Assembly: GCF_000001735.4 (NCBI RefSeq)
Contig: NC_003071.7
Coordinates: forward strand, 9,293,151 to 9,357,150
DNA: 64,000 nt
DNA from: Arabidopsis thaliana
Taxonomy: Eukaryota > Streptophyta > Magnoliopsida > Brassicales > Brassicaceae
Direction of reading: 5' to 3'
The translations under genes were made by a program, and so were the position numbers. The notes beneath the pieces are model-generated. The model did no database searches. It saw nothing but the letters and a program-made list of their open reading frames with translations, and was not told the DNA's origin. Positions 10,218 to 57,955 of the stretch are shown piece after piece (within the stretch, counting starts at the first letter, position 1; the number at the start of each line of letters is the position of its first letter).

Positions 10218-10670
10218 GTAAGTTAGCCAAAAGAAGTCGTCTTTGACCCTTATCATCTGTTGGATTTATGCTTCTTGATATGTTATCGAACATGCTTATG
10301 AATAAAGAACTGTCTAGTGAAAGGTACTTCACACTGAGAAGACTCTTCATCAATTTTTAAGTTTCATATTCAATAACAATTTTAAGTATCATTATTACTT
10401 CAATTACCATAATGATACCAAAAAAAAAAAAATGGGCTCAATAGAATCCAATTAAGCATGGTCAGTAAACGAAATAAAAAATATTAAATTTTCCAACCAC
10501 ACCACGTTGAGAAACAATTATTGAGCCACTAATTTATTACTCTCTCTCTCTCTGTCGACCTCACAATTAGTTATGCTTTTGGGATTTTGAATCATGAAGG
10601 TTCTTTGATCAAGATTACTGTGTTATCTAATGGTACTCTTAGATCAAGATTCCAATCTTGCTTCTTCCCC

Positions 10671-12550
10671 ATGGGAAAACTCGAGCATTTCTCCCACTCA
10701 TGCCCTTTGACCTCGCCGGAGATTGTAGCTGAAGGCATCTGCAACATTTGCTTCCAAGACCAAGTTGTTGAATACGCATGTAAGCCTTGCAATTTTGATA
10801 TATGTAAGACTTGCTCCAAGCTGCCGCAAAAGGTGTCACATGGTTTTCACTCAGATCATCCTCTTGAGTTTTCTCTATTCCAATATGATCGAAAACCTGG
10901 TTACATTGTCTGCTCTTGTTGTGGGAACATGTCTTCTTGCTCATTCTATGAATGTAAAGAATGTGAGATCTATCTTGATCTCGGTTGTGCACTACTGAAG
11001 AACGTTTTCACTGGTTGGGACGTTAGAGAAATGCTTCATTACAGTCATGAACATTTGCTTCGAAGGTGTAAACCAGGACAAGATGCTAGAGGCTCTTGCC
11101 TGCTTTGTGAGCTCCCTCTTTCTCCCTCTTCTATATGTTACGGTTGTGTTTACTGTTACTCGTTTCTCCACGAGCGCTGTCTCGATCTTCCGACAGAGAT
11201 TCGACATCCCGTGCATCTGGAACACCCTCTCAGACGCCTTGATTACATACGAAGTGGTGGTCGAACATTTTGCGGTGCGTGTAGAGAGAAGATTGACAGT
11301 GTCCCCTTTGGCTGCCTAGAATGTGGTTTTTACATTCACATGAGGTGTGCAGATTCGTTTTTGCGCTGTCTGATGCATGAATCTCATGAGCATAAATTGT
11401 TTTATGTATCTTCGAATGCTAAAGAACATTTTGGAAGAAACAATTGTTGCCAAATATGCTTGGGAGCTGTAGTGAGCTCTCTCGATTCTTACTACCACTG
11501 CATCGAATGTGAATTGGAGTTTCATTTCGAATGCCTTGGGATTTCCAAGACCATTTCTAAGAGATCTTGTCACATTCATCCACTTGTTTGTAAAAGAGTA
11601 CGTGAAGAGGATGATTCTTTGGAGTACTGTGGCGTTTGCGAGACATTGATTCATGCCGGACATCATGTTTATTCGTGCGAAGAATGTGATTTTCTTGGTC
11701 ACATTGAATGCATTCTACGCGAGGTAATCAATATCGTTTTTGTGTTTTTTTGTTTCTTAATAATGATGCAATGCTGATGATCTATATCTACAAACTACAG
11801 AAAGAGCCATCACCATTGTACTTGAAGGATCTGTATTCTTGTGTTGAAGACGTCAAAAGAGCAACAAACCAAGAAGACTATGAAACCAACAAAGTTATGG
11901 TATGGCTTTATAATTATCTATCAGTGGAAGAAAAGTATGAACATCATTTTAAGCCAGCCTTTTGTCTCAAACGTGTAAGGTATATGTTGCAGGTTCATGA
12001 TATCAACCATAATCATGTGGTGACATCGATTGATATGTGTGAGCTTGAAGGCAAAGAACATTGTCACATATGTGAAAAAGAAATACTTGGTAATCCATGG
12101 AAATGCGAGACTTGCAACTTTGTGACACATAACTTCTGTGTGGAGCTAGGGAAACCATCAAGACATCGGTTTCATTGGAACCATCTTTTGACACTCATGC
12201 CAAAACCAGTTGCTACGGATATGACGAGTTGTAAAAGCTGCAGAGAGGATATAAAAGGGTTCAATCTATTTTGTCGAATATGCAATTTTATTATCCACGT
12301 CAGTTGCGCCATGAAAGGTAAACGTTTTCTTGGGATGACAGGACCGAAAGTCGTTGGAACTTGGAGAGGACGTTGTTTGGGAGGCAAGCATAGAATGGTC
12401 CAAGTTATGTTCCCGAGGTCATATCAAAAAGTTTGTATTATTTGTCATGAGAGGGTGCTTGGGAAGGCTGTGTCATGTATGGAGTGTGAAACGATTTATC
12501 ATCTTCGGTGTATTGACCGACATCGTATCAAAGACCGTGATTCTTCGTAG
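10671..12550 (+). CDS. Cysteine/histidine-rich C1 (DC1) domain protein, 3 exons, short C-terminus
   Basis: Exons 10671-11723, 11801-11899 and 11993-12550 join in frame to 569 residues. The start MGKLEHFSHSCPL is chosen because both full-length siblings begin this way; an in-frame ATG at 10587 would add 28 unrelated residues. Repeated DC1 modules fill exon 1 (for example CNICFQDQVVEYACKPCNFDIC and CLLCELPLSPSSICYGC). Exon 2 is a linker, and exon 3 holds two to three more modules. DC1 proteins are plant-specific Zn-finger proteins, and most lack a defined role. The protein stops just after CMECETIYHLRC, where the siblings at 14238-16892 and 22118-24758 continue with two or more further modules, so its 3' end appears truncated. 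Probably At2g21830. Confidence 0.85.
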
Positions 12551-14365: not shown

Positions 14366-16892
14366 AAAGGTCAATGAGATCACGCTCAAGGTGCATAAGA
14401 TAGATGTCTTTCTGTTGTTTCTCTTCTGTTGTTTCCCTACGGTCATCCTGTACGAATCGGGAAAAAAAATGATGAAATTCGAATATTATTTTTGATAAAA
14501 AAAATGAGAGTCGGTTAACTCTTTACCTTAGACATTATCCTTTCAGTGGGAAAATTCCTATCGCAAGGATAGCATTTGTAAGATATACGATCCATGTAAT
14601 TGTCACGGACAGACCATTTTTCCCTGTGAGAAGTGTATACTTGTGTGAGAGTATGCACATGCCGTTGGTTCCTCACATTAGCTGGAAACCCAATACACTC
14701 TACATGGGCGTTGAACATACAGTCAATACATCCGTAGAACGACACACCACATGGTCTAGAGCACACACCGCAAGCTCGAGTCACCCTCGAATCATTGTTC
14801 CAAAAGTTATAGAAATAGTGACTATGAGACTTGATCTTTCTTGGTACTATCACTGCTTTGATGCATTCAATATGGAAATTGATTTCGCAGATGGTACAAT
14901 GATAGCCATATTTTGTTATATTCAGTTGGCAGGCCGTGCACTTGGATCCACTTTTAAGTGAAATTGCTAGCATGTGATCAACATGAAGTGGATGACCAAC
15001 TAGAATTCGCCTCCCAACTTGGATACACATAGGGTGATATATATCTTCACACGTCACACATGAAAAAGCCTTTCCACAAAACTTCTCATCACAAATAGAA
15101 CAAGTGATAGGATATGACCGTGAAACGATAACTTGAAACAAGCTATGTTTGTCTTGTATGCAAAGTCCTAACCATGTTCCAATGATTTTCTGACCCCTTT
15201 GTAATGCACCATGCATTTTTTTATCTTTCAAAGCGCAGTTGATGTCGATGATGAAATTGCATATACGACAGAAGAGATTGAACCCGCCTATATCGTCTTT
15301 GCATGACTCACACTTCCTTCTAAACCATCTAGGGGTATTTGGTAGAAGGGTCAAAGAATGGTTTAAATGAAACTGATGCTTTGATGGTCGCCCAAGCTCT
15401 GCACAAAAATCATGTGATTGGAAGCTACATGTCTCACATTTGCAAGGATTATCATGTATTTTTGTCCCACACATGTTGCACTTTCCTTCTTCCTCAAGCT
15501 CACTCATGTGGATTAGTTTCATCACATGAATATGACTGAAGCTATTAACCTGGAGTATATATTTGAAACAATTTTAGGTGAAGACATTGTTTCACTAGTG
15601 TACTGATTATAATAAAAAGGCATACCAGTAACCTATCTTCAAATTCAATGGTTTCAAGATGTTGGGATTTTGTGTTGCCTTTGCTGCAAGAGTACAAATC
15701 TTTCAAGTACATTGGGGAAGGCACTTCCTGTTGGTAATGAGTAAGAAGAGTATTAGCTCATATCATTTTCGTCAACGGATATCGTCATCATTATAAGAAA
15801 AAATAAAGCTGTAATAAAAATATTAATTACCTCGCGTAGAATGCATTCAGTGTGGCCGACAAAATCACATTCTTCACAGGAATATTCAGGATATCGTGAA
15901 ATTACCATAGTCTCACAAACACCACAATACTCCAAAAAATCGTCCTCCCCTCCGACTCTTATAAATCTAAGTTTATGGATGTGATAGGATTTCTTGATCA
16001 CATATTCAGGTATCTCAAGACACTTGGTATGACATTTCAAATCACATTCCACGCATAAATAATAGAATCTGTCATAGACCACGGTTTCCTTGCATATTAG
16101 ACATGGTTGTTTTACTCTTTCATCAGCAACACGACGAGTACTTTCTACATAAAATAGCCTGTGTTCATGGGACTTATACAACAAACCCCGCAACAAGGCA
16201 TCTGCACATCTCAGATGAAGGTAAAACCCACATCCTAAGCAACCAAATGGGACACCAACAAATTGGCCGTGACAGGCATTACAAGATTTCTCACCGTCAA
16301 AAGTTTGTATATAATTAAGGCGTTTGAGAGGGTGCATAGGATGCACGGGATGTTGAATCTCGGTTGGTAGATCAAGGCAACGCTCGTGAAAAAACAAGTA
16401 ACAATGAACGCAACCGTAACATATTGCAGTGAAGGAGAGAGGTTGCTCACAGAGAAGGCAAGAGTCTTTGGAATCTGGTCCTGGCCTACACCTTTTAAGT
16501 AAGTGTTCATGGCTGTAATGGAGCATTTCTTTGGCTTCCCAACTCGTCGCTATGTTCTTCTGAAGTGCACAGCCCAAATCGAGGTAGATCTCACACTTGC
16601 TACACTCGTAATAGTATTTGGCTCCAGAAGACATGTTTCCGCACACGACGCACACCATGTGTTTAGTCTTCTGATCATCTTCGCCTATACGAAATTCTAG
16701 AGGGTGCTCCGGATGAAGATGGTGTGACATTTTCTGGGGAAGATCTGAGCAAGCTTTGCAGAGATCGAAATTGCAAGGGTCACAGGCGAATTCAACAGGT
16801 TCATCTTTGAAGCAGATGTTGCAGATCCCGTTTGCGACGATCCCCCGCGAGGTCAACTCGCACTCATGAGATCCATGTTGGAGCTTTCCCAT
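14238..16892 (-). CDS. Cysteine/histidine-rich C1 (DC1) domain protein, 5 exons, 769 aa
   Basis: Exons in - order: 16892-15831, 15727-15626, 15549-14527, 14447-14363 and 14275-14238, joining in frame to 769 residues. The start MGKLQHGSHECEL matches sibling starts; an upstream in-frame ATG at 16910 is not favoured. Exon 1 has about five to six DC1 modules (CNICFKDEPVEFACDPCNFDLC and similar). Exon 2 is a linker (PSPMYLKDLYSC), and exon 3 has about five more (for example CNMCGTKIHDNPCKCETC and CGVCSRPCGVSFYGC). Exons 4-5 give an acidic tail. There is no transmembrane segment or signal peptide. It is the only family member here on the - strand. Role unknown; the family is often linked to hormone and stress responses by expression only. 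Probably At2g21840. Confidence 0.87.
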
Positions 16893-17064
16893 CGAGAGCA
16901 AGAAAGTCAACCAAGAAAACGTTCAGAATTTTATTTACTTCTCCGCTTTGATTTAAAGATTTAAAAACGTTTTCCAATTATTTGTATGTTTTGATTCGAG
17001 CTTCACTTTTGGGAGTTCGGGTCGGGTCAATTATGGGTTTGGATATCGAGTTTACTTACGTTTT

Positions 17065-18508: not shown

Positions 18509-19869
18509 GGAAAAATTATAAAATTTACCATATTTTCTCAATTTCTTATGCAATTTACCATAATTTTTCCTCCCTTACACATCATACCACATTTCCACTT
18601 AAAATATCTATATTGCCCTCACCATTTCTTCTCTATTTTGTTTCTCCTTTCTCGAGATCCGTGCGCTTTAACCACACATCACTATCTTTCCGAAGACAAA
18701 ATGAAACGTTTTTGTCTCTCTCACTTCTCCTGACAACGTGCACATATTCTTTACATATAACTTTTAATTTATTTTGTCCCCTAATTTCTATTCATCATAA
18801 ATTTTCCGTTATGTCTAGATCTTGTCTCCGATTTTCACCATCTTTCAATATTATCATGAATCCCACATTTTATCCACCAATTATTCTCATTTAAGGTTTC
18901 TAATTTGATTTAGATTTTCACCATTTATTTTGGTCCACAGATTAGTTGAGCATTATTGTTTTCACCGACACGATTTTTTTTTCTTCTATTGTAAAATAAC
19001 AAAAACATCCAGTTATTACATATCATCTTGTCTATTATTCGATCTGAATTTGTCCCCGATCTAATTCTATTACTCATTCGATATGAACTTGTCCCCGATA
19101 TAATATATTATTAAAATATGTAAACGTGTAGGTGAAGACAATAACGCTCAACTAATCTGTGGACCAAAATAGATGACGAAAAATCTAAATAAAATTTAAA
19201 ATTCTTAAATGAGAACAATTGCATATAACGTGTAGGATTCATAATAATAGAGCAAGATGATGAAATCGAAAACAAAACGTAGATGCAACAGATTTCTATT
19301 CGGGGACAAGATCTGGAGACTAAAACAAAAGTCTGTCACCAGTTGTACTCCGCTAACAGGTAATTATGTCCCCTAATGCATTATATATTACGTTGTCCCC
19401 CGCTAGCAGGTAATCACATCTCCTAATGTATTATATATTACGTTGTCCCCCGCAGAATTTCTCCGCTAACAGGTAATCATGTCCCCTAATGCATTATATA
19501 TTACGTTGTCTCCCGCTAGCAGGTAATCATGTCTCCTAATGTATTATATATTACGTTGTCCCCCGCAGAATTTTGGATAACCAATTTTTTTAAACAAGTC
19601 AATTTTAAATACCCAATAACAGTAGAAGCCAGCTGTTCTCCACTATTCTCTCTCCTAATCTTTTATGTTTCCACCATGATTTTTTGTCATGTATCATCAC
19701 ATCAGTTAAAAGCTGTCACCATCTAAGTCAGTCCCTGACCCACTTTAAGGGCATTTTTGTCCACGAATTACCAAGTGAAGTAAAATGTGGTAGATATTGT
19801 AAGCTGAACTAGAATATGGTAGAAATTGTAAGATTGGACCAATAATATGGCAGATTTTGCAAAATTTCC
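18509..19869. mobile_element. Non-autonomous Mutator-like element with long inverted repeats
   Basis: The left end (GGAAAAATTATAAAATTTACCATATT) and the reverse complement of the right end (GGAAATTTTGCAAAATCTGCCATATT) match well. The flanks are TAAATATTT at 18500-18508 and TACATATTT at 19870-19878, a 9-base target duplication with one mismatch, as expected for the Mutator superfamily. Inside, 18780-18990 pairs with 19110-19330 as an inverted repeat (core GGTCCACAGATTAGTTGAGC). No transposase is encoded, so it is a foldback-type non-autonomous element. Confidence 0.75.
19351..19569. repeat. Higher-order tandem repeat inside the Mutator-like element
   Basis: Two copies of a 113-base dimer start at 19351 and 19464. 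Each dimer has two related units containing AGGTAAT..T..CCTAATG.ATTATATATTACGTTGTC, one beginning CGCTAACAGG and the other CGCTAGCAGG. The two dimers differ at only a few bases, so the outer duplication is recent compared with the inner one. Confidence 0.85.
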
Positions 19870-21965: not shown

Positions 21966-22117
21966 CTTGTGGGCTTAGTGAAATTTCGTAGATGTATATG
22001 TAAGCCCGTTAAACATTGTATACGATTTAATAAAACAGAACGACTTGTTTCGTGCACTCCTCCCACTATCTTAAATCTAAAAAAAAAAACTTTGGATCTC
22101 ATCTCTCGTTGACTTCG

Positions 22118-24758
22118 ATGGCAGAGCTCAAGCATTTCTCCCATGAATGCCCATTGACTTCACCCAAGATCGCCGTCGACGGGATTTGCAGCATTTGCTA
22201 CAAAGATGACCTTGTCGAGTTGGCATGTAGCCCTTGCGATTTCAGTCTCTGTAAAGGTTGCTCTCAACTTCCGCAGAAGGTCTGGCACGATTTCCATCCG
22301 GATCATCCTCTGGAATTTTGTCTGCACCAGTACGATCAGAAACCTGAACACGTCGTATGCTCCGGGTGTGGCAACATGACTTCTGGCTCTTTCTATAAGT
22401 GTAAAGAGTGTGAGATATACTTGGACATGGGCTGTGCGCTCATTGCGAGCATCTTCAGGGGCTGGGATAGCAAAGACTTGCTCCATTACAGCCATTGCCA
22501 CTTGCTTAAGAGGTGTAGACCCGGACCAGACGCTAGAGGTTCTTGCCTTCTCTGTGAGCTTCCCCTCTCTCCCTCTTCCGTTTGTTATGGTTGCGTTCAT
22601 TGTTACTCATTTGTTCACGAACGCTGTATTCATTTTCCGAGAGAGATTGCACATCCTGTGCATCTTGCACACCCTCTCAAACGGCTTGATTACACACGAA
22701 CTAGTCTCTGTCATATATGCGGGGAAAGTATCGCTGGTGTCCCATTTGGTTGCCTAGAATGCGATTTTGACGCTCACTTGAGGTGTTTAGATTCCTTTTT
22801 GCGAGGGCTGATGCACAAGTCTCATCCGCACAGGTTGATTTATAGAACTAAATCTCACATAAGTTTCACAGAGAATGATCAATGTCAAATATGCAGGAGA
22901 AGTATTGTGATATCTCTTGACTCTTTTTTTTACTGCATACAATGCTCTATGGTTTTCCATTTCGAGTGTCTTGAGATACCTGAGTTTGTGGTCGAGAAGT
23001 CTCATCACATTCATCCACTTGTGTGCAAATTTCTCCCATATGAGGATGAATTTTTGGAGTATTGTGGCGTTTGCGAGACAATGGTGTATGCAGGACATCA
23101 TGCTTATTCCTGTGACGAATGTGATTTTCTAGGCCACATTGAATGCATTCTACGCAAGGTAATTACTGTTTTCTTATTAATGATGTTGGTGGTGAAACGA
23201 TGACGATTTATTCTTTATTATAATCTACAGGCTGCCCCTTCCCCACTATACTTGAAAGATCTTTACCCTTGCAGCAAAGACAACACTAGTTCAACATATC
23301 AACTGGACCATGATACCAATGAGCCAAAAGCCGAACTTATGGTATAGATTTTCATTACAACTGATAGACTAGTGAAAAAATCAAAAATTGTTAACTCTTT
23401 TCATTCATATATTGGTTGTGACTGCCCTTCCCTTGATTAATCCAGGTCAATACTATGAAGGGGCATATACATGTGATGCGATTCGTTGATTTCCGTGAGC
23501 TTGATGAAAAAGCAAAGTGCAACATCTGTCGGACAAAAATACGCGGTAGCCCATGTAAATGCGAGACGTGCAGCTTCCAGGCGCATAGTTTCTGCGCAGA
23601 GCTAGGGCGACCATTGAAGCATCGAGTTCATAAGCATTTTCTGACACTCTTACCAGATGCCCCTGCAGGCACAGATGTTACTATGAATTGTGACATTTGC
23701 AGAGATGATATAAAAGGGTTCAATCTCTTTTGTCGCATATGCAATTTTGTCATCCATACCAATTGCATATTTAGAGGTAAACACTTATTTACGGAGTCAC
23801 AAAGGGGGCAAAAAATCATTGGAAGCTGTACAGCGATGAGTGGATGCATTCAAAAAGAGCATTTGTTGGATCAAATAATGGTCTCAAAGTCATACTCCAT
23901 GGCTTGCGATATATGTGAAGAGGTGGTGTGTGGAAAAGACAAGACCATACATATGTCATCGCTTAGGCTTTCAACATTTGTGTATCGTCTGATCAATGAA
24001 AGCTCACTTGTTTCATGTGTGGTGTGTAAAGATGTATATCATCCATTGTGTCTGGAAGTTAACAGGCAAATGAGATTCTGTCATCCAATTCATCCTGATC
24101 ACTACCTTCCGCTTTCATTTGTAAGTGGATCCAAGTGCCTAGCCTGCAAGCTGGAAATTAAAAAGTATGGCTATCATTGTTCCACTTGCAACATCAGTTT
24201 CCATATTAAATGCAGCAAAGCGGTAATATTTCCACAACAGACATCTCACAACCACCGTTTCTATCACTTTTGGATTGCTGACTCGAAGATCACTCGAACC
24301 TGCCGTGTGTGCGCTAAACCGTGCGGTGTCTCGTTCTACGGATGTATTGGGTGCGACTTCAACGCCCATGCAGAGTGTATTGCGTTTCCAGACAATGTGA
24401 AGAACCAAAAACATGAGCATACTTTGAAGCTAATAGGTAGTCGTTATTTCGAGCCAGATTGCTTTCTCTGTGGAGAGCGTATTGTGGGTAAATTCGGAAA
24501 AAGCTCCAATGTGCTTTATTCATGCAAGCACTGTGGCAAAGAGTTTCACCTCAAATGCATAATGTCTACGGTAAAATTTAGTCAACCATCTTGCAGAACT
24601 TTAACCATTAACTTTTTCCGTTTTGTTTTCGGTTTTCAAAACATTTAAATGTTTTTTTCCGTGTCATACAGGATGACCGTGAAGCTGCAACAGAAGAGGA
24701 TCAATATGGAGACATATATCTTATGTACCTTGAGCGTCATCTCTTGGAGGTGTTATAA
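22118..24758 (+). CDS. Cysteine/histidine-rich C1 (DC1) domain protein, 4 exons, about 787 aa
   Basis: Exons 22118-23158, 23231-23341, 23446-24570 and 24672-24758 join in frame. The start MAELKHFSHECPL matches the siblings. Exon 1 has serial DC1 modules (CSICYKDDLVELACSPCDFSLC and others), exon 2 the linker PSPLYLKDLYPC, and exon 3 about five modules (CNICRTKIRGSPCKCETC, CRVCAKPCGVSFYGC). Exon 4 is a short acidic tail ending in ERHLLEVL. In exon 3, between CEEVVCGK and SCVVCKDVYHPLC, about 23 residues (near 23937-24005) are added compared with the - strand sibling, stretching one Zn-binding loop. The final exon used by that sibling survives downstream at about 24850 but is cut off by the stop here. 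Probably At2g21850; function unknown. Confidence 0.85.
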
Positions 24759-33020: not shown

Positions 33021-35500
33021 TGTCAGAAGCTCAAGAATCTACGAGATTGTTCTCTTTTTATGCCAATAAAGTTTCTTTATGGTTTTTGGACAGAGACAAG
33101 AAGTCTACGAGATTGGTCTTGATGATCTTGCTTCTTCTTCTGTCTTCTGGGAGGAAAAAAAGGAAAAGGACAAAAGAAGAAGAAGTTATCACGTGTTATT
33201 ATGATATTGGTTGATGTGAAGAGAAACCATGTGAATCCTTTGCCAACTAAAAGCAAATAGTTTGGCCAAGCCAGCGAATACGAATACGAATCTAAAAATC
33301 CAAGTCCCTTTTTTAATTCAATTGTTATTGACAAAAAAAAATAGACGTCAGTATTTATTTCTTCTTGTTTTCAATCATTGATTTTACAGGAGAATTGAGT
33401 TGTCTTTTGTTTTTCTGACAATTGTCAATTAAATTGTGTCTATATTTGGCCCCTGAGTCATTAGTAATTAGCGGCAAAATAATACTTAATTTTTGTTTAA
33501 AATTGCAAATAATTTTTTTTATATGATTTTTGTTTGTTGCTTTTGGCCAATGACTTTAAAAGTCAATGAATATAGACGTGTGGACATCTCGCTTATATAG
33601 TACAGTACATATATGAGCCAACAATAACATTCATAGTCTTGGTAACATTTTTTGTTTTCTTCTTTTTTTGGTATCAAATTGTAATTACTAAAGCCTTAGT
33701 AACATTTTTAAAATGTAAATTATCGTTGAAAGTTTCAAAAATGTAATTATTGACTATTTGATAAAACCTTCAGATAAATGATATCATATCATATGAGAGG
33801 ATCAGCTTTGTAATTTTCCTTTTTATGACTAACAGAGATAAACGAAGATGCAGCGGGAGAATTGTGTCAGTTTCTAACTAGTAGACATTTTTTTGTGAAT
33901 TTATCAGATAAGAAACAGAATAGATAATTAACAGGTGTTTGCCCAAGAAAAAAGATAATTAAGAAAGTGAAAACTATGAAAAAAATCAATTAAATAAAAA
34001 GAAGATATTAGATAATGGAGATGTCATTTTGACATTTATTGATAAGGTGTCGACCAGATCGTGCTAGCCTTCACAATATCTCATATCTTCATTGGTCGTT
34101 GACAAGACATGATCATGTATTCATGTAGCTGTCAAAACATATAGTATTTGTTTCTATTCTTTTTTTGTTAATGAAAGCATATAAATCCGATTAACAATAT
34201 TAAATAGAAACCACTAAATTAGATACCAATTTAATTACTTATAATGTATTTTTGTTGTAATTTATGGGGGGTTTTTTTCGAAAGAGAAGCAAAATACACT
34301 GTACATGATGCCAATAAAAAACAAAGAGAGAGAAACAAGATACCTTCAAAAAATAATATTACAAATAGCTTTTACAGTTTCAATGGGGTTTAAATGGTAT
34401 TTTATTTTATAAGAAACGTTGGTTTTACTGGTTAAATTTATATATTCCAAAATGTATATTATATCGAAAATTGTTTAATTTTACCGTTTTGTTATATATA
34501 TAAAAATATGCAAGCAATACTTGGCAAGATATCAAAGAGCGAACTGTATAGAAAACATTTTCTTGTTGCATGATTTCTGATTTAATTTTATACATGAAAG
34601 GAAATATATGAATGCCTACAATAGCATCGGACTTTCGGGCTGGTAAATCCAGAGCAATAAAGTAACATACATTGCCGTGATAGTGAGGTCCGATCCACAA
34701 AGAAAGGATAATCATGTGTCGAAGGTGAAGGTGTTTCACACAACAAGCATTCCAAATCACTCCATCAACCTTCTTGAAAAGAACTTCTGCTCGTGGGAGT
34801 CTTGTGCTTGAGTACATTATGTTGTTTTTTTCTCGCTATATTTATATGATGTATGAATAGTGGTCGATAAACATTTTGCCGATAATAAGATGTTGATATA
34901 CCCAATAAAAAGGGAGTCACTATACTTGAGTTGAAAGATGAACCAAGTTAATTTATGCGGTTTTCCAATTGCCGTAAACCAACCTTCGACAAATCTTTGG
35001 TGTACTTACAACATCACCAAGCTTCTCGAGAGTGGATAACACCAGCAAAGGAGCTACTAATAAAGAATATAATTTATGTGGTATACCACAACAAAATATT
35101 ATCGAAATAGAGAAAATCCATAATATTAATTCAATTCCATTGGGAATTCATTTTTGTTCCGAATGAAAGTATATAATAATAAATTCATTTCCACGGAGAC
35201 CACTAGTATATATTACTGTGTAGAAAAAAAATGATAGTGCATGATATAACGTTGGTAATTTAATTGATTGATTAGGTTAAGTTTAAAATACAAAGAAAAT
35301 TACTGGTAAAAAAATTAATTTTGGTTGGTTTTCAATTCTAATATGGAAAAAATATGGCTTAAAAGTTAGAATATATTATAAGGCAATTGACACAAATAGC
35401 ATTAAAAAATATTCAAAACTAGCACCACATATAAAAAACTACACAAATATCACTTTTCATTTTATTTAATTATTAAATGTAAATTATTAAAAGTTGTCAC
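33021..35500. other. Gene-free spacer of 2.5 kb
   Basis: No gene I can support. A 130-codon open frame on the - strand (34425-34817) has no motif I recognise and no visible splice partner. The DNA is AT-rich. GTGGTATACCAC at about 35079 is a perfect 12-base palindrome. Confidence 0.4.
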
Positions 35501-35501
35501 C

Positions 35502-36478
35502 ATTAATGAACCTCTGAGCCACAAGAGAAGGACGAGCCAAAGGAGGAGGTGGAAAAAGAGAAGAAACCAAAGTCACAGAAGAAGGGTAAGAAGGAAAGTA
35601 AAAGAAAGGAACCAGAGCCAAAACAGAAGGTGGAAACCAAGAAGAAACCAACGCCACAAAAGAAAGACGAGAACAAAAGGAAAAATGGGCCTAAAGAGAA
35701 GGGTAGGAAAGAAACACAGAAATCCGTAAGATGGGCTAAATCAGTAGGAGAGCTAATCAAAAAGAGGTGTTTACACTAGAATGTTGACAGTGCAACCCGC
35801 TAGTTTGAAAGATCAGCTAGGCTAAGAATAATGTATAGACCAGAATATTCGTGTTCAAACTAGAAAGAAAAAGCAGGAAGCCTAAATTCACTATGGACCT
35901 CCTTCTGACTTTTGATTTCTATTGTATTTTATGTAGCCCTCTGTACTGAACTTACACCCCTTTTTTGGAAGTACTAGCTTTTGTGATCCCTTGAAGAACT
36001 GGCAAAGGCAAAAGCAAACTTCTTGTAAGCAGATTTGTAGTCGACCAACTTGTACTATGCCGACAAACTGCTTACAAATCGGCATAATACAAGTTTGTGG
36101 ACTACAAATCTCTTTACAAGAACTTTGCTTCTGACTACAAAATCTACACATTATTCTTAGCCTAACTGATCTCTCAAATTGGCGGGTTGCGCTGTCAACA
36201 TTCTAGTGTAAACGCCTCTTTTTTATTAGCTCTCCTACTGGTTCAGCCCACCTTACGAATTTATGTGTTTCCTTCCTACCCTTCTCTTTCGGCCCATTTT
36301 TCCTTTTGTTCTCGTCCTTCTTTTGTGGCGTTGGTTTCTTCTTCGTTTCCACCTTCTGTTTTGGTTCTGGTTCCTTTCTTTACTTTCCTTCTTGCCCTTC
36401 TTTTGTGGCTTTGGTTTCTTCTCTTTTCCCACCTCCTCCTTTGGCTCGTCCTTCTCTTGTGGCTCAGGGGTTCATTAT
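35502..36478. repeat. Long imperfect inverted duplication (foldback locus)
   Basis: The left arm 35502-35835 pairs with the right arm 36147-36478. By eye the arms differ at roughly one base in twelve with a few single-base indels. A second, inner pair (about 36012-36058 with 36078-36130) sits near the apex. About 170 bases (35836-36010) in the left half have no partner. A transcript across the locus would fold into a long hairpin. The left arm (35549-35779) has an open frame for a Lys/Glu-rich 76-residue peptide (KKGKKESKRKEPEPKQKVE). The same frame in the right arm is broken by a one-base deletion, so the arms derive from a lysine-rich coding sequence that was duplicated head to head. Confidence 0.88.
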
Positions 36479-36489
36479 GAACAAATATC

Positions 36490-37426
36490 ACTCTTCACTC
36501 TTCACCTTCTCGTCGTCTGATATGAGTAGTGGCTCGTCATTATCTCCTTCTTTGGCCAAAGTTGGATGAGAAAACGATAGCAAAACCATGATCGAAGAAA
36601 ATATTATGAACATTGTTTTATTCTCCATTTTAAAATATTTTGATCTTTTATTCTTAGTTAGTTAGTTTTTTTTTATTTTACCAATGAGGATTTCTGCATG
36701 TATTTATAGTCTAAAATGTTCATAACATTGTTATTTAGTAACTTTTTATTAGTAAAAGTAACATTTTTCTATTTATCTTTGACCAACAATAATTTATTAG
36801 TTATCAACATAATTTACATTTTTGACGTTTTACAACGTTTATAACTATTGTTCGTTTAATGCATTTCGGTTTATGACAATATGAATTAAGCTGAATGAAA
36901 ATGCATTTCAGTTTATGACAATATGAAAAATCTTAAGCGTTTCATAGATAGAAAACTGGGTTTTGAGTCCCACTATATATGCATTTAAAGCTTCATTGTA
37001 GTAAATTTATTGTTCGTACTCGAATGAAGTTTGCAAAAAAATTTAAGAAAAAAGAGTATAAAAGTAACAAAATAAGTTATTTCAAACTTGCACCATAGTT
37101 TACAATTTGTGAATATGAAAACATATGGGCGTATTAACTATTTAATACTGACTAAAAAAAGCGGTTAATTTGGCCCCAAAAAAAACATAACAAAAACAGC
37201 TAAGATGTACCAATCTGATATTACACTAAAACCGAACCAAGGTTTACTTATAGAGCAATGGTTTCATGCTTTCATTAATTAGAAAATCAAAAATCAAAAT
37301 TGAACCGAACTGAACCAATTTTAGTGTATCTAAACTAAACATAATCATATTATATTTTAAAAACTTTTAATATTGTATTTACAATAAATATATTCGTATT
37401 GTAGAAATGTAATATAAACTGTGGAA
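36490..37426. other. Spacer between the foldback locus and the SINE-like element
   Basis: AT-rich with no gene seen. An 18-base motif (TGCATTTCGGTTTATGACA) recurs at about 36860 and 36901 with one mismatch. Confidence 0.4.
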
Positions 37427-37429
37427 CCC

Positions 37430-37680
37430 CCTTGATCCAAATGTTGACCAAGGGTTCATTAATGATTCTACCCCAAGAGGTCTGGGGTTCGAGTCCCAGC
37501 TATTGTGATTTATTAGCAAATTTGCAGATTAATGGAGGCAAGTGTACAGGAGATCTACAACGAAGTATAATTATAGCCGTTTGTCAAGATTTTACGCAGA
37601 GAAGATATTGAAGATGTCCATTAAGCGCATGGAGAAGGATAAGAAGATTATGTAAAATTTTTTATCTATATTTATAAATT
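37430..37680 (+). mobile_element. SINE-like tRNA-derived element (Pol III B box)
   Basis: GGTTCGAGTCC at 37486-37496 matches the Pol III B-box consensus. A degenerate A-box-like stretch (GTTGACCAAGG) lies about 40 bases upstream. There is no tRNA cloverleaf or acceptor stem, so a tRNA-derived SINE is more likely than a tRNA gene. The 3' boundary is not clear. Confidence 0.5.
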
Positions 37681-37938
37681 TATCTAGTCATGGTAATATG
37701 TAGTGCAAATATAAAAAGAAATCACCCAGCATAGAAACATTTAAAATTTCAACAATTCTTTAAACTACATCCACAAATCCTTCAATTCTTATCTTCAAAT
37801 GATGTGACATATTTTTACCCCACTAAAATTCCACTAATTCATTTACACTTGGGTTAGACCCTTCTTACATGTTCCCCACCCTAGCATAACCGAATCGTTC
37901 ACAGATAGAGAGAAAGAGAGAGATTAGAAGAAACAAAT

Positions 37939-39496
37939 ATGGTAGATCAAAATAGAGCATTTGGTTGGGCGGCCAACGACGAATCGGGCGTCCTCTCTCC
38001 ATTTCATTTCTCTAGAAGGTTCCTTTCGTTTACTTTTGAGTTTTGAGAGTACACTTAATTAGTCTCTGATTCTCTTTCACAAATTTTGTATGTTTTGGTG
38101 TCATATTATTGCAGAGAAAATGGTGAGAACGATGTAACAGTGAAGATCTTGTTCTGTGGTGTTTGTCACTCTGATCTTCATACCATCAAGAACCATTGGG
38201 GATTCTCTCGTTACCCCATTATTCCCGGGTATTCTCATTACTTGCCATTTCTCTTATCAATGCTCCCAAATATTCTTATTTCCTTTGTTGGAGATTTTAT
38301 TAGCTTTATAGAATAAGAAATGTCTAAGGTTTGGATTAAAATTATATTGGCTAGGTGTTGACCCTCTCCGTACGATTAGGGCTTAGCAGTTTTGAGCATT
38401 GGACAAGTTCCGCTATTATTAATTTATTACTGATTATTAACAACTATACTTTTGTTAATTTGCTAGGCATGAAATCGTTGGAATAGCAACAAAAGTTGGG
38501 AAGAATGTGACAAAGTTTAAAGAAGGAGACCGAGTAGGAGTAGGCGTAATAATCGGTTCATGCCAATCATGTGAATCATGTAACCAAGACTTAGAAAACT
38601 ATTGTCCTAAAGTCGTTTTCACATACAACTCTCGTTCCTCTGACGGAACCAGAAACCAAGGTGGTTATTCCGACGTAATTGTTGTCGATCACCGCTTTGT
38701 CCTAAGCATTCCCGACGGTTTACCAAGCGATTCAGGCGCGCCGCTGCTCTGTGCTGGAATCACTGTGTACAGTCCCATGAAGTATTATGGCATGACTAAA
38801 GAATCAGGGAAACGTTTAGGTGTGAATGGACTTGGTGGACTTGGTCATATCGCTGTTAAGATTGGTAAAGCCTTTGGTTTAAGAGTTACTGTGATTAGTA
38901 GGTCATCAGAGAAAGAGAGAGAAGCAATTGATCGACTCGGTGCTGATTCGTTTCTTGTTACAACGGATTCTCAAAAGATGAAGGAAGCAGTTGGAACTAT
39001 GGATTTCATTATCGATACGGTATCAGCAGAACATGCTCTATTACCTTTGTTTAGTTTGCTTAAAGTGAGTGGAAAGCTTGTGGCTTTAGGCTTGCTGGAG
39101 AAGCCACTCGACCTGCCAATTTTCCCTCTAGTTCTCGGTAAAGAAAACGATGATAACCCGTTGTTATAAGCTGTGAATCTATGTTTGACGTGTTGTGGAA
39201 GTAACTGTTAGGGTTTTTTGTGTTTTGTTTTAGGAAGGAAAATGGTGGGAGGAAGTCAGATTGGAGGGATGAAGGAGACACAAGAGATGCTTGAGTTCTG
39301 TGCCAAGCATAAAATCGTTTCGGATATTGAGCTCATAAAGATGAGTGATATCAACTCTGCGATGGACCGTTTGGTTAAATCTGATGTCAGGTACCGGTTC
39401 GTGATCGATGTGGCCAACTCTTTACTCCCTGAGTCGTCAGCTGAGATTTTAACGGAGCATGTCGACCATGGAGTCTCGATCACGTCTAGATTCTGA
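37939..39496 (+). CDS. CAD3: Cinnamyl alcohol dehydrogenase-like Zn-dependent MDR enzyme, 4 exons, 375 aa
   Basis: Enzymes of this family reduce cinnamaldehydes to monolignols with NADPH; this clade (CAD2/CAD3 type) is not considered a main lignin enzyme. Exons 37939-38018, 38115-38228, 38467-39137 and 39234-39496 give 375 residues in frame, the usual length. Catalytic Zn ligands lie in CGVCHSD, GHE and CAGITVYSP. The structural Zn site is [15 protein letters not shown]. The NADP fold shows [11 protein letters not shown] followed by a Ser-rich loop (ISRSS) that fits NADP(H). The C-terminal [15 protein letters not shown] is family-typical. No break is seen. Corresponds to At2g21890 from memory. 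Confidence 0.93.
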
Positions 39497-39851
39497 GATT
39501 TTCTTGAGCATGGTTACAAAATCATGAATCCGTTTTCTTGTTGGACTTGTTACTTTGTCTTTTCTTTCTATATGTTTTGTTCCCTGGTTTTTTCTGTTTA
39601 AAAGCATTGAAACATTGACTTTTATAAGGTTTTGCAAAAACATGAATCTACTACTTGTTTTACAAGTTACTTGAATAGAAACTTTCTCTGTTCTTACTAT
39701 GCTCTGTTTCTTGACAACACTGTTTTTGTTCTTTGTCCAGGTATAAATTATAAATGCGGTTTTAGTCACACGGAAAAATCCAAAGGGAGATGCCATTATA
39801 TCATTTAAAAACCATATATTATAACAGAATCATTATTGGAGTTTGCATACA

Positions 39852-40105
39852 TCAAAGTTTCACAGAGGAAGGCGCCGGAGAAGAACCACCGGAATTTGGA
39901 GATTGACAGAAACCACGAAGAACGTTGGTTTCATCAGAGGTAAATCCTAGAGACGTGAGCATCGCAGGCCAACAATCGGTGGTGATGACCTCGACGGTTG
40001 TTTCACCGTTGAGGAAGAAGAGAACGATTTCGTTGGTGCATGACTTGAGCTCGTAAAGTGCGTTTCAACACTCCATTAGTCCTCCTCCGTTGAGTCTTGC
40101 CTACC
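39852..40105 (-). pseudogene. EC1-type egg-cell secreted protein pseudogene
   Basis: The - strand reads NALYELKSCTNEIVLFFLNGE, then VEVITTDCWPAMLTSLGF and TNVLRGFCQSPNSGG. This is characteristic of the egg-cell EC1 family (Cys-rich prolamin-like proteins secreted at fertilisation). The conserved Trp codon before NALYELK is a stop (TGA). The segment with the CC pair between FLNGE and VEVITTDCW is deleted, and the signal-peptide part is missing. Intact EC1 genes are known a short distance away on the same chromosome (At2g21740/50 by memory), so this is probably a local duplicate that decayed. Confidence 0.85.
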
Positions 40106-40368
40106 TTTAGGTTTATCTTATATACGAGTAAAAGCCCATCTAATTATAAGAAATTTCATAAGACAGTTATACATAAGCCTTACCATTTTTAAGATATATA
40201 ATATAAGACAAATTAAGAGAGAAAATTTTTTGATCCTGCTAAACTCAACCACGAATTAATGTCGCAAATGCGCCAATATATAGGTGTAGATGTCATCTAG
40301 GGAGACCCGTGTCCTCCATGTCTTTGCAGAAACATTTTTATACTCTTAAAGACACCACACTTAGCTAA

Positions 40369-40707
40369 TAAGAGCATCCACATAGCACATCTTTTAATGG
40401 ATGTCTTTATTTTAAGAGAGAGAACAAGATTGACAATAAATAGAGCGACTTTTTAAATAAACAAATAAGAAAAAAATCACTTACCAATAATATAGTGACA
40501 CATAAGGTGTCTTTAGGTTCTATTGTGTCTCTGCCGAGACACAACTCTCTACTGTTTTCTCTTTTTTATTTATTTTTTAATGTAAAGACCCTTGCTTTTA
40601 TATGCGATGAAGATGGTCTAAATGACTAAAAATGAAAATAACATTAATTTTTATAATAAATTATAGTAAAGACATTTGTAAGAGGGTCACCAATGTGGAT
40701 GCTCTTA
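40369..40707. mobile_element. MITE with 15-base perfect terminal inverted repeats
   Basis: TAAGAGCATCCACAT (40369-40383) and its reverse complement (40693-40707) bound a 339-base AT-rich element without coding capacity. The similarity of the arms continues less perfectly for about 25 further bases. The inside also holds a hairpin with a 9-base stem and 4-base loop (TTGTGTCTC / GAGACACAA, 40523-40544). Target duplication is unclear, so the superfamily is left open. Confidence 0.75.
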
Positions 40708-40998
40708 GGTACAATATGCACAGAAATCTACACCGATCCTCTAAAGCTCAACATATACAAAGGGCGATAAAAGAGACTCATGTACAAATTAGTTACTTTA
40801 TAAAAAATGACTATCAAACCTTACATACAAGTACAACTATACAAGATGACTTCCATTCTACCTCCACCAATTCAATACATTACAAAACGAACCCCGAACA
40901 AGATATATGTACGTAGTTACATGTGAGACGTGATTACGATGGTGAATTGGTGATATATATATATACATCTATATACACAAACTTGTAACTACGATCGA

Positions 40999-43072
40999 TC
41001 AATATGGAGCAGAATGAGAGAAACTATACGTATTTGCCGTCTGAAAGGACCAATTGTTGAGAGAGTTAAGATCAAAGTCGTCTGAATCACAATAAACTAC
41101 AGAAGGGCTTGGGTGGTTATGTCTACCTTCGTATGTTGTCAATATGTAATCTGGATTGTTCGTATCTCTTTCGATCTTCTTCTTCACGTTGCAATCTGGG
41201 CTCGAACACTTGTGATAATGCCTGTTCCAAATAATGATGAGCACCAATAATTTAGTAAAACTCTTAAGAGATTCTACAAGATTTGTAATGTAACAGTTTG
41301 ATTATTATATATAGTGTGGTCCAATAATTGTTAGGATAACAAAAACAATAACGTCGTTTATGTATCCACTTGAAATCAAAGGTAGCATACATGATACAAC
41401 AAATAACTCAATTATGATATTCTCAAGTGTTATTGTTATAAGATTATATTACAACTTGTGGGAAGTGGACAATATACACACACACAAAGAAAAACTAAAA
41501 AGTTAAATAACCCTTGTTGATTCTTGACAATTAATTAGTTTCTATTCAATAGATGTATTTGGGGCACATGTTCCACATGGAAATATACGTAAAACTAAGT
41601 GATAGTAAATATATGCATGTTGGACACAAACATACAAATAGAAAATTGCATTTGGACAAAAATCTCCGAAGAGGGAACATTAACTAGTTTATACTTTATA
41701 CTATATAAAAAAAACTAGTTTGTATATTCCTCTGCATTTTTATAGTTAATTTTTCAGATTTTTCTATTTAATTTTATTTATTTCTAAACTTAAATATTAT
41801 TTATTAGTTAGCTAAACATGATTTCACTAATGATAAAATAATTTGTAGAATAGAATTTGTAAGTGCCAATCAAATAAATTACAGTAACTAATTTTGCATT
41901 AAAATTTGAAAACATCATCTAATTTGTGACAAAATAATTTCCCTAAAACATTGGTGATAAAATATGGAAGGAGTATTATAAACTAAATACACATTTATAG
42001 TTTGTGACTTTGTGTGAATTAGGTTTTAGTATACAAAATTATGTTCAACTTATTAGTCGAAACTCTTAAAGGAATGCTCTTCTTATTAATTTAGAGCATA
42101 AATAATAATAAAAATCTCATTTCTATGTAATAGTATTTTGTAGACAGAAATTAACACCAAATTTTAAAAGTGAAATTATTAATAACTATATATATGATTT
42201 CTGCAATGAATAAATGTGAATATTATATATCATGTACAAGACTTTGGTTTTATCTTACATCGATGTAAGGCTTTGTCTGTCTTTTATTTAACTAACCGAT
42301 AAGCTTAATGCAAAAATATCGGTAGTTAACTTGTAAAACTTGACAGCCTCGACTATATATTAGTTGTATCAAGTTGTCCATTTGACATTTAACTATTCTA
42401 CGCTTTAAGAGATGCATTCTTTCTAAATTCATCAAGTGGAAACATTCAATCCAATACTCAAATCAACACAACCTGTAGCATATGCAACTACAATAATCCA
42501 AGCTGTTGAATAAACTTTAAATCCAAGTATGATAACCGAATAAAGGTATTATACGTCCTCTACGAAGTTAGAATTAATGATTTACCTTGGAAATGGACTA
42601 CCCGTTATCGGCTTCTTTCCGTATTTCCTCCATTTATACCCATCATCTAAAGCAACCTTTTCATCAATTGATGATTTCGTTTTGAAGACGTGAATAATCG
42701 GATCTTCTTTGTGTCTCTTCCTCTTTTTGATTTCATCTTTGTCACCTCTATATAAATCATTATTTTTGATAAATATCACTGTTCTAATATATAATTTTCA
42801 TCAACAACTAAATTTTTGCTAAGATGTATGATATAAAAGTTGACTTACATTTCAAAGCTCATAGGTGAGGTAGCTAGGCTTGTTTGAAGCGGGCTTGTGA
42901 TTTCTGCAGCCACTAACTTTTCCGATGAACTCCAACTCAAAGTCGGTGACGACGAGTGGTCCTCACGGCCGATTTCTTCCATGATCTTCTCAAAAGTATC
43001 GTCAAAATCATCGAACTTGAAAAATTCAGTGAAATCTGTGGAGCTAGGGTTAGGGTTTGAAGGATAGTTCAT
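40999..43072 (-). CDS. WRKY59: WRKY transcription factor, group IIc with WRKYGKK, 3 exons, 202 aa
   Basis: Exons 43072-42849, 42747-42586 and 41221-40999 give 202 residues in frame. The DNA-binding domain reads DDGYKWRKYGKK, with the zinc site formed by CSSPDC and the HNH end (GRHNHP). The heptad is WRKYGKK rather than the usual WRKYGQK, as in the WRKY50/51/59 subgroup, which binds standard W-boxes less well. An acidic Ser-rich N-terminus (FDDFDDTFEKIMEE) and a Lys/Arg-rich stretch (KKRKRHK) that could be a nuclear signal precede it. The second intron (41222-42585) is long and sits inside the domain at the conserved position. Corresponds to At2g21900 from memory. Confidence 0.93.
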
Positions 43073-45232
43073 TTTTAGTTTCTCTTTTTTTCCAAGAAGG
43101 TTGTTTAGTTTTTCCGGCGGTTGAAGCTAAGAGGAGGGACAGATATTGTTAGAGTAATACTGTTTATTTATACTACAAAATCTAAGAAAAATAATGATAG
43201 AATTAATAAAATAAAATAAAAGTCTATTTGCTTTTAATTAAGTAATAAAATAACTTTCATGGCTACTTTCGTGCGTAGATTCAACGAAGCTTCTCCAATA
43301 GAATAGCTATAGCGACAAGTGATTTTTCTTTATTAATTATCATTTATTTAAGTTAAAAATAAAGTACCCATAAAAGTGGGAAATTTTACTTTTTAACAAC
43401 TTTAAGGTTTTATAAAAAAGTTTTGAAGCGTTGTCCAATCAAATCCTCGAGTAAAAAATGCATGTAACATCACTGGTCCCTTCATATATAATCATATTAC
43501 ACTAATTAATCACTTTTAATCAAAGCTAGATTTCGAAATGATGTAGCTAGCAAACGAACCAACAGATGATGGTGGGTCAGAAAACCTAGGTCTCGTTAAC
43601 ATGCTTCTAACTTATGTATGAATATATTAGAAATTCCATATCTAAGGTAAGAAAGAAGACACATATGAGATATGAACCAATACAAGTATTTGTAATTGGT
43701 TTTGGGTTATAAGTTCATGAAAATAAACATGGTATAGAGCCGAGTTTGATCTAAATAGAATGGTTCAAGGAGGGATATTTTATTAATTGTTGATCTTAGA
43801 GTGGGATTTTATTCGACATTAGCTGATAAGAGCGCTATCAACTTGGGATTGTATTATGATTTCACAAAGTTAGGAAAAATTTAAAGTAATATTTAAGGAA
43901 AATCTAGTATTTTTTTATTAATTTTTGAGTTAGAACCCGTGAACTTCATAAATGATAATAAAACTCAGTTTGTTAATCCAAGTAGGATGACCTAAGTTAA
44001 ATGCCGGTTTAAAATTGATCGATTATAACCATCATCATTTCTTTAGTAATAGTACGTGTTAAGATATCACGTCGAAAATTAAAAAATAATGTTTACAACA
44101 CAAAAAAAAGTTAAAAAGAACCTAAAGTAATGTATAGGAAATATATCAAGTACCAATTCACTCATAACCAATTTGTTTTGCGTTCAAAATTATTAAAGTT
44201 CATACGGTATTAGAGACTGACTTTGATGCAAGTAAGTTAAAAAAATACTGTCGATTGTAGAGTGCCATTCGATTTGTAATTGACAGAAGAACCACCATTT
44301 AAAAAGAACATCGAAATTGTGATGAGACGATATTAATACAAACGAATTAAGGCACCCTGAATACTCAAGGACATGTATCAAACTGATCAGCAAATGTTTT
44401 TGGAATTTCGTAGGTGACAGTTTTCTTAGAATTATGTTTTCTGGACCTAAACAAGTATGGATCAACGGACATAAAACTACGTCTAATTTTAGGCTGCATT
44501 GTATTAGCCAACCAAAGTCACTTTGGCACCACGTCTCATCAGTTTTTCTTTTTAACTTTGGCCTAACCAAAAAGAGACAAAAATTATTTAAAACAATTTA
44601 AAAGATATCTAATAGCTCAGATTCTATCCTTTACGGATCTTAAACTTATTGTACAAGTAGTTCCATTGTTGTTTTTAATTCTAATACAAATAGCCTTATA
44701 GGGCAAGTTGTCGGACATTTTAAATAATTATGGTCAAACACCAACCTCTGCATGCGTTGCCAAAATCAATATATAATAAATAAACACCTATCACATTTTA
44801 AAGAGATATTAAATAATTATTCAAATTCGGGAAACACTAGACGGCTTTGCGGTAAAATGCATTTTTAAAAGGCAACTGAACTAATTTTCTCAAAAGCAAT
44901 TCTCAGATGGCGAAATTGTTACCATCACTAATGATTTTCTTATATTTTTTTGCCAGTGGTTAATTATATCATCTTTTAACAAAAGAATTCTGGAATATGC
45001 CGATTAAAAGCCATCATTATGATTCATGTAAAGTGCGACTTTTTCTGTAACTATGTAGGAAAAAGCACCTTTTGTTACCAGCATAGAAAATTGATAATAG
45101 AAACTTTAGATTTAAAATTTGAGCAACCAATAGCGAGACGTAATAGTTGCTACATGAACTATTAATATCTTATTGCATGTTGTAAGTGTATCTTATTGCT
45201 AGTTACTGCACAACCTCAAGGTCGAAGGCACA

Positions 45233-56011: not shown

Positions 56012-57955
56012 CGATTTGACTTCACAGTGAGAAAAACTTAAGGAATAAGAGAAGAAATATGAAAGGACGGTGAAAAAACGTGGTGCCGTTTTAAACGGGT
56101 TGGAATATGACTAAACGTCGTGCCGTCTTATTAATAAGGAAGAAACTTTTGACGCATGTCACGGATTTAAACACTACACGTTTCCACTAATGACCATTAT
56201 TAATCCATTATACACACTAAATTCGGAATTTAGATGGGCCTTGTAAAATTGTTTCGTAACCGAAATAAATGGAAGATTTTAAATATGACCAAATGTAAGG
56301 AGACTGTATTGAAAGACAAAATATTAAAAGTTATTTGAGTTTTAATAAGTTTTGGTATGATTCTGGTCAACTTGGTTGAATTAGGAAATTTGTTATTCAA
56401 ATTTTTTCAAAATTCAGCTAAAATTATGAGATTTGAATTTGTTTTTAACCTAAAATTTTTCTTGAATTGTCATATAAAATTATTTAAATCACTTCAAATC
56501 CACTACTTCATTTTTTTACGATTTGATTGTATATTTTCTAATTACTAATCCAATAATATATTTAGCAAAACTTCTTAATTTTGAATAAACTAACCAAATT
56601 TGGATATGTAGCAAAGTTTGATAATATCTTCTAAATTCTGTTTTTTGACGATTAGATTATAAAAGTTTTTGGCAATTTTAGTTTTTTTCAAGCACCAATG
56701 AGGGGAAGTTGTTAGGAATTTGAAAATTTCATATTCATAACATATATTTCTTTTGGTTCTTATTAATTGATTTTTTAGAAAAAAAATTGTTTTAAAAAAA
56801 TTGATTTTTAGGAAATGTAAATCATAAAAACTAATATATTTATAATTAGTTTTAATATATTATTTTAATCTATATGTTTTTTCTAAAAAATCAATTAAAA
56901 AATCAGAGAAAGTAGTTTTTTGCCAAAAAAATTCTGATGCCGAATTTGAGCTTTGTATCCTCAGTTTTCTTAGGTGTTAGTAAGATATTTTGCTTTTAAT
57001 AAAGAAGATAATTTTGTGAAGAAAAAAAAAGTTTTGAGGAGAAAAATAGAGGATAATTAAGAAATGTTTATAAAATGGTCAAAACAACTAATGACATATT
57101 TAAAGGGGGAAAAATGTCATTTAATCCCTCAACTTTCAAAAAATGATCATTTTATATACCATTTTATATATGCGACTGTTTAATATATGAACTAAACGTT
57201 GACTAATTTTTAAAACATTAAATTAATCAACGTTTAGTTTATGTATTAAACGGCCGCATATCAAATTAATGTATAAAATGACAATTGAAAGTTGAGAGAT
57301 TAAACGACATTTTTCCCCGCATCACTGTTTCAGCTTCACCAACCCCATTATTCTCTCTATTAATTATCAAATGAATTAGTTATTAGTCCCTTAATTATTC
57401 AAAAAAAAAAAAAAAAAAAGTCGACTCATCCTCCGGCGGGAGTAGAAAATTCTTCTTGGTTCTGCAGGTGGTAATCTTGTTTTCCTTAATGAAGTTTCTT
57501 AGCGCTAATTTTTTATATGTTTTCTCGTTTAAAAAGTGTCAATTTTTAAAAATCCTTTCCCTTTTACGGTTCAATTTGATTTGGATAATAATTCTCTTTT
57601 TCTCTGGAAAGTTCGAATTTTTTTTTGTTTGGAAGCTTGGAGAAAATATTATACTCTTCTCATTGAATGATCAATTTACAAATCCTCATTTGATCGATCT
57701 TGTCAATTTTTGAAAAAAAAAATCTGAACTTTGAGAAAAGTTATTGAGTTTCGATATCTGTCGGTCATGGTTTGATTGTGGCTGTTGGGTAAGACAACAA
57801 ATTAGGTAGGGTTTTGTGATATTGATGTCCGTAGTCCTTAATTATGGCCAAATTGTTGTCTTTTAGGTTTTGACAGTAGCAAAGAAAAGCTGAATCTAGT
57901 TAGAAATTGCTTTTGCAGGGTTTTTGAATAGTTTGTGTATTGAAGATTGTCTGAA
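56012..57955. other. Spacer upstream of SK1
   Basis: Holds the MITE at 57106-57318 and another inverted pair (TAATTGATTTTTTAGAAAAAA at 56764-56784 with its reverse complement at 56877-56897). An A run lies at 57401-57419. The transcription start and 5' UTR of SK1 probably lie in 57400-57955. No other gene seen. Confidence 0.5.
57106..57318. mobile_element. Foldback MITE, 213 bp
   Basis: The two halves are near-perfect inverted copies of about 95 bases. The left starts GGGGAAAAATGTCATTTAAT and the reverse complement of the right starts GGGGAAAAATGTCGTTTAAT. Both continue through CTCAACTTTCAA and CTAAACGTTGA. There is almost no loop and no coding capacity. It is about 640 bases upstream of the SK1 start. 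Confidence 0.82.

Follow-up and report, generated by a model that had tools for sequence, protein, structure and literature searches.

A young inverted repeat beside a duplicated Prolamin_like 5' end in Arabidopsis thaliana, a candidate hairpin siRNA locus

Here, we describe a locus in Arabidopsis thaliana at which two copies of a gene-like fragment lie in inverted orientation beside the copied 5' end of a secreted-protein gene. We tentatively read it as a hairpin siRNA locus of recent origin that captured a promoter active in the female gametophyte, a reading that we hold at a little under an even chance and in which transcription, cell type, dicing and effect are all deduced from the DNA. 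Models of plant small-RNA gene birth are weak on the question of how a fresh inverted duplication gains a transcript; in this case, a likely promoter, the gene that donated it and the breakpoints are all legible from the sequence, the expected cell type is specific, and this apparently borrowed promoter is the new point of the analysis. The window analysed is a stretch of 64,000 nt, C2:9293151-9357150, with what we take to be a Rab7-like gene to the left of the locus and cinnamyl-alcohol-dehydrogenase-like and WRKY genes to its right. Genome searches covered 119.66 Mb on 7 contigs and skip simple repeats and very common words.

The inverted repeat and its loop comprise the following features.

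35504..35839, plus strand: left arm of the inverted repeat
36143..36477, minus strand: right arm of the inverted repeat, whose minus strand carries the Lys/Glu-rich frame interrupted by the loss of one base
35840..36142: loop of 303 bp separating the arms
35510..35779, plus strand: Lys/Glu-rich open frame of the left arm, 89 codons from stop to stop, with no ATG
36006..36063: left half of the inner hairpin, 86% complementary to the right half
36079..36136: right half of the inner hairpin, with a 15-nt loop between the halves

Alignment of the arms over 336 columns shows 92.9% identity, 23 substitutions and a single gap; the arms lie within 4 bases of the limits given by an earlier, sequence-only reading, which had placed two reverse-complementary arms of about 330 bases at 35502-35835 and 36147-36478. 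That reading had also described the Lys/Glu-rich frame as open in the left arm and lost in the right, and the alignment agrees: a single A opposite 35600 is missing from the right arm, with loss of the frame. It was mistaken in calling the arrangement head to head, as the two copies of the Lys-rich frame have their 3' ends towards one another, which is to say tail to tail. Each arm contains an internal duplication of ~70 bp, 77-80% identical. Differences between the arms fall mostly at third codon positions of the Lys/Glu-rich frame (10, compared with 5 at first and 2 at second positions), a pattern that, with so few differences, may hint at past coding constraint; the frame itself (87 residues given) had no match in Pfam.

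Among the 18 inverted pairs detected in the window at E <= 1e-6, the arm pair is third by BLAST score and highest in identity, the two higher-scoring pairs being only 68% identical; three of the 17 other pairs fall within the hairpin locus itself. Elsewhere in the window, the long pairs at ~68% identity (10657-12513 with 15023-16906, and 15071-16895 with 22115-23936) are perhaps neighbouring family genes in opposite orientation. Palindromic stretches also occur at 57106-57318, which is 80% self-complementary over 220 columns, and at 18814-19283, which is 71% self-complementary over 487 columns and lies where GC skew is strongly negative.

The predicted free energy of the folded minus strand was -676.8 kcal/mol, whereas 20 shuffles averaged -261.6 (sd 6.4), in keeping with the long hairpin proposed earlier. 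As expected of an endogenous inverted-repeat siRNA locus, there is a long near-perfect repeat compact enough to fit within one transcript, its copies being 93% identical and 303 bp apart. The stem of a usual microRNA precursor is far shorter than the ~335 bp available here.

A second, inner pair near the apex had also been noticed, at 36012-36058 and 36078-36130, and is genuine, those limits being slightly short. The 143 nt of minus strand around it have a predicted fold of -73.3 kcal/mol. In a genome search with DNA from 35680-36150, the locus itself was returned and the inner hairpin added one region, C2:1957048-1957215, its left half being 98% identical over 61 bp to C2:1957150-1957210; the inner hairpin apart, the loop has no match elsewhere in the genome. 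The related region, C2:1957026-1957215, consists of nested small hairpins that share this 61-bp piece, and these fold back at the other end of the piece from the inner hairpin of the locus. A known microRNA precursor was considered for the inner hairpin and rejected, the two Rfam matches both being far below the gathering score (mir-230 at 30.2 against 72.7 bits, mir-2242 at 25 against 70), and a literature search with 15-base strings from it gave no match. A protein product of the loop was likewise set aside: the 86-aa minus-strand ORF (85 residues given) has no Pfam match, and its genome matches are itself, the other strand of the inner hairpin and the C2:1957 repeat.

With respect to copy number, a genome search with left-arm DNA returned the arm itself and the right arm, with no third copy, and in a six-frame search with its translation all matches other than the two arms had E values of 2 or more. 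The arms are therefore not multi-copy transposon ends, which upholds the earlier view that they are no typical transposon terminus, and the gene-fragment inverted duplication and long hairpin of that account stand with it. What does not survive is its proposal that the hairpin silences a parent Lys-rich gene. The search for a single-copy Lys-rich source found none in the genome beyond the two arms, either as DNA or as six-frame protein, and such silencing is thus unsupported; because the searches skip simple repeats and common words, a parent that was much diverged or of low complexity could be missed. Young MIRNA genes are marked by arms that resemble a parent or target gene, and genome searches of this kind likewise revealed no such resemblance here.

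The most informative feature lies immediately beyond the right arm, where a segmental copy begins, and the following elements there and past the left arm bear on transcription.

36478..36508: junction of 31 bp from the right arm to the copied block, unaligned with the Prolamin_like paralogs
36509..40101: copied block, a segmental copy of C2:9278933-9282259 in three aligned pieces that are 92.3, 93.4 and 95.7% identical
36488..36628, minus strand: ORF of 46 aa, consisting of the first 40 Prolamin_like codons, then 6 junction codons and a stop
36701..36708, minus strand: TATAAATA box (TATA box), 80 bp upstream of the ATG
36738..36744, plus strand: GTAACNT site, of the type reported for MYB98, at -136, by motif match
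36758..36764, plus strand: second GTAACNT site, at -116, by motif match
35461..35466, minus strand: AATAAA polyadenylation-like signal, by sequence match, just past the left arm

The block was found by direct comparison of the window with C2:9266001-9295999, in which 36868-36975 and 37427-37648 were left unaligned, and its source is ~50 kb from the window copy. It contains, in order, a truncated Prolamin_like gene, intergenic DNA, a dehydrogenase gene and a truncated EC1-like gene, both edges being intragenic, the left at codon 40 of the Prolamin_like gene and the right within the EC1-like PF05617 gene. The copied block thus starts 31 bp from the right arm, and the promoter that it carries points into the arms. 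At the right edge, 39852-40101 is a truncated and internally deleted copy of the EC1-like (PF05617) gene, whose open source gene is found around C2:9282040-9282231. The unaligned segment 37427-37648 is an insertion of ~220 bp that is absent from the donor block, with ~7 bp of overlap at its alignment edges, and belongs to a repeat family with at least 35 other matches for its first part.

The identity of the truncated gene is evident from its paralogs. All or part of 36509-37426 matches four other places in the genome at 81-84%, which are the 5' ends and upstream regions of secreted-type protein genes with open frames of 168-192 aa, and the 46-aa ORF is 85-93% identical over 40 aa to these four paralogs. 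The one paralog that was scanned matches Pfam Prolamin_like (PF05617) at E 6e-15, and a PF05617 scan of the genome gave 121 matches, among which are all four paralogs and a fifth, more distant relative; two of the Prolamin_like paralogs are on chromosome 3. In the paralogs, the PF05617 match begins downstream of the 40-residue part kept in the window, and the 46-aa ORF has no Pfam match to the domain, whereas the intact paralog does. A protein search of the window for the remainder of the gene found the first 40 residues near the locus and three other matches, all weak (E >= 5.8).

From the copied part, it is plausible that the Prolamin_like 5' end provides a candidate promoter aimed into the hairpin. 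The TATAAATA box lies at -80 to -82 in all six genes examined, namely the window copy and five relatives, and, of 200-bp segments taken every 50 bp across the window, only 0.4% contain two or more GTAACNT sites. One paralog, at C2:9263, adjoins a GRP7-like ORF and is presumably AT2G21655, to judge from gene names and gene order. In the 800 bp upstream, GTAACNT was absent from three of the five relatives, the presumed AT2G21655 included; of the remaining two, the donor copy alone has a site near its ATG and the other has one at -799 only. GTAACNT is given as the recognition site of MYB98 in PMC10200956. AT2G21655 appears in a table of embryo-sac-enriched genes (PMC2246279) and among genes named as synergid cell-specific (PMC7375004), and a promoter-GFP fusion of another ECA1-related gene, AT3G30247, is reported to give a synergid signal (PMC7375004).

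These elements allow a transcript to be predicted. Minus-strand transcription by RNA polymerase II would begin near 36676 and proceed through the right arm, the loop and the left arm to the AATAAA at 35461, so that the RNA would carry, in order, the leader, the signal-peptide ORF, right arm, loop, left arm and AATAAA. With both ends assumed (36676, 32 nt below the TATA box, to 35445), the predicted RNA is 1232 nt long, and in its fold 319 of the 335 right-arm bases are paired into the left arm, the longest unbroken helix being 59 bp; only 15 bases of the 196-nt leader pair with the hairpin. Such an RNA would form a near-perfect stem of ~335 bp, which DCL2, DCL3 and DCL4 might cut into 21-24-nt siRNAs, mainly in synergid cells, these cells being proposed on the basis of the expression reported there for a gene related to the donor. 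As no other copy of the arms was found in the genome, the siRNAs would be expected to act mostly in cis, by methylation of the locus, or on targets that are short or absent.

How the locus came to be assembled can be read in part from its flanks, where three further features were identified.

35386..35490, plus strand: fragment resembling the terminus of a repeat family, abutting the left arm
35443..35459, plus strand: left copy of a 17-bp direct repeat, within the terminus-like fragment
36481..36497, plus strand: right copy of this 17-bp repeat, located in the junction that follows the right arm

The terminus-like fragment matches C2:6204743 (72%, over 35386-35490) and C4:8594064 (80%, over 35420-35490). 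With the C2:6204743 copy as query, 45 matches including itself were obtained (40 of 46 candidates scored), the window fragment not being among the matches listed. The 17-bp copies, identical at 16 of 17 positions, flank the inverted repeat in direct orientation; a match of this quality was reached by 1 of 2000 random 31-mer draws (those nearer than 1.5 kb skipped) and by none of 2000 shuffled spacers.

Divergence provides an estimate of age. The Jukes-Cantor distance (JC) is 0.072 +/- 0.015 between the arms, and 0.050 +/- 0.012 and 0.053 +/- 0.011 between source and copy for those two pieces of the block that are mostly noncoding, values that a single event, or two in close succession, could have produced. 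The dehydrogenase gene lies in the third piece, the largest, which is at 0.019 +/- 0.003 and does not fit a single age, so that constraint or gene conversion is needed to account for it. With a mutation rate of 7e-9 per site per year, the event or events would date to some 4-5 million years ago. Decay through methylation was considered as a contributor and not retained: transitions account for 19 of 23 arm substitutions and 59 of 85 in the copied block, which, as plain counts, is no clear difference, and the contexts of the C's at arm transitions (14 CHH, 3 CHG, 2 CG) resemble the background (224, 34, 28). The left arm has A or T at 14 of the 19 arm transitions, which is suggestive only.

The coming together of at least three sources at one spot (a Lys-rich gene, the sequence shared with C2:1957 and the C2:9279 block) suggests that the locus was assembled by repair with template switching. 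On this model, a fragment of a Lys/Glu-rich gene would have been copied twice, tail to tail, beside a transposon-like terminus, and the same or a near-simultaneous rearrangement would have pasted in the 3.6-kb block, whose left edge brought a Prolamin_like promoter, 5' leader and 40 codons.

The principal alternative, which we consider nearly as likely as the hairpin siRNA reading, is that a complex rearrangement left the locus behind as a silent relic, methylated, untranscribed and drifting neutrally. The frame is broken in the right arm and has no ATG in the left, and no long target for the arms was found by DNA or six-frame searches of the genome. Arm transitions display no bias towards changes that preserve pairing through G.U, with 9 of 19 doing so in minus-strand RNA and 10 of 19 in plus-strand RNA, and hence the hairpin bears no mark of selection, a lack that favours drift, or too little time. 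Several genes of the ECA1-related group are reported to be silent and densely methylated in leaves (PMC3422182), and the same source describes these genes as expressed and less methylated in synergid cells, which counts against a relic, as does the survival of an intact TATA box and signal-peptide ORF despite 5-7% divergence of the block and arms. Overall, the locus is about as likely to be a silent relic as to be a hairpin gene that is active in synergid cells; if silent, the locus would be a datable hairpin that, with a promoter at hand, never became a gene.

Two further explanations appear improbable. The product could instead be a short secreted peptide, encoded by the 46-aa ORF at 36628-36488, with the hairpin as an accidental 3' UTR; the ORF is intact, starts like the N-terminus of the family and has roughly two changes in 120 coding bp that look copy-specific (five-way alignment, by eye), but the entire Prolamin_like domain is absent, and two or three changes are about the neutral expectation at this divergence. 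A foldback or Pack-MULE-like transposon carrying a gene fragment would fit the left flank that resembles a repeat-family terminus and the 17-bp direct repeats around the inverted repeat, and we think it similarly unlikely. Seventeen bp is long for a MULE target duplication, which is 9 bp, genome searches gave no copy of the arms beyond these two, and no convincing inverted second terminus was found in the window, the best minus-strand match being 29 AT-rich columns at 43204-43230 (E 0.02); when 40050-42000, beyond the right edge of the block, was set against the left flank and the copies of the repeat, the matches were all short and AT-rich. An extended form of the hairpin reading, in which one multi-template repair event supplied hairpin, promoter, leader and terminator together, and synergid siRNAs act at fertilisation as a guard or barrier against a Lys/Glu-rich gene lost here and kept in other accessions or species, is speculative and very improbable.

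Among the papers listed by literature searches on the locus and its class, whose reach excluded supplements and most subscription journals, none was seen to describe it, and of the AGI numbers tentatively assigned to it and to the paralogs AT2G21655 alone was matched; the locus may well already be in a published small-RNA locus table. If transcribed as predicted, it would work most like IR71 and IR2039, the endogenous inverted repeats (endoIR-siRNA loci) of Arabidopsis (PMC5910406, PMC4687873, PMC12825306), or like the VIM4-VIM2 repeat. IR71 is a transcribed inverted repeat processed by DCL2, DCL3 and DCL4 (PMC4687873, PMC12825306), and a long near-perfect fold-back from one transcript and cutting by these enzymes are both expected here; siRNAs of 21-24 nt that depend on DCL2/3/4 and not on an RDR would mark a member of this class. 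IR71 forms about 3 kb of dsRNA with measured siRNAs (PMC12825306), whereas the present stem is ~335 bp and is known from its DNA, and unlike IR71 and IR2039, the locus has an identifiable, seemingly borrowed promoter. In accession Cvi-0, siRNAs from the VIM4-VIM2 inverted repeat are reported to lower VIM1 in trans (PMC13213937), and there, too, structural change placed an inverted repeat under read-through transcription of the kind predicted here; our locus differs in that no homologous target was found and that its promoter would come from a third, unrelated gene. Young MIRNA genes, which arise by inverted duplication (PMC3237417), share with it the inverted copying of a gene-like fragment and a short inner hairpin near the apex; the locus departs from them in its ~335 bp stem, in having no parent gene found and in reaching the gathering score of no Rfam family. 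With the secreted Prolamin_like/ECA1-related genes (PF05617), it has in common the upstream region, TATA box, leader and first 40 codons, and differs in that the inverted repeat takes the place of the Prolamin_like domain.
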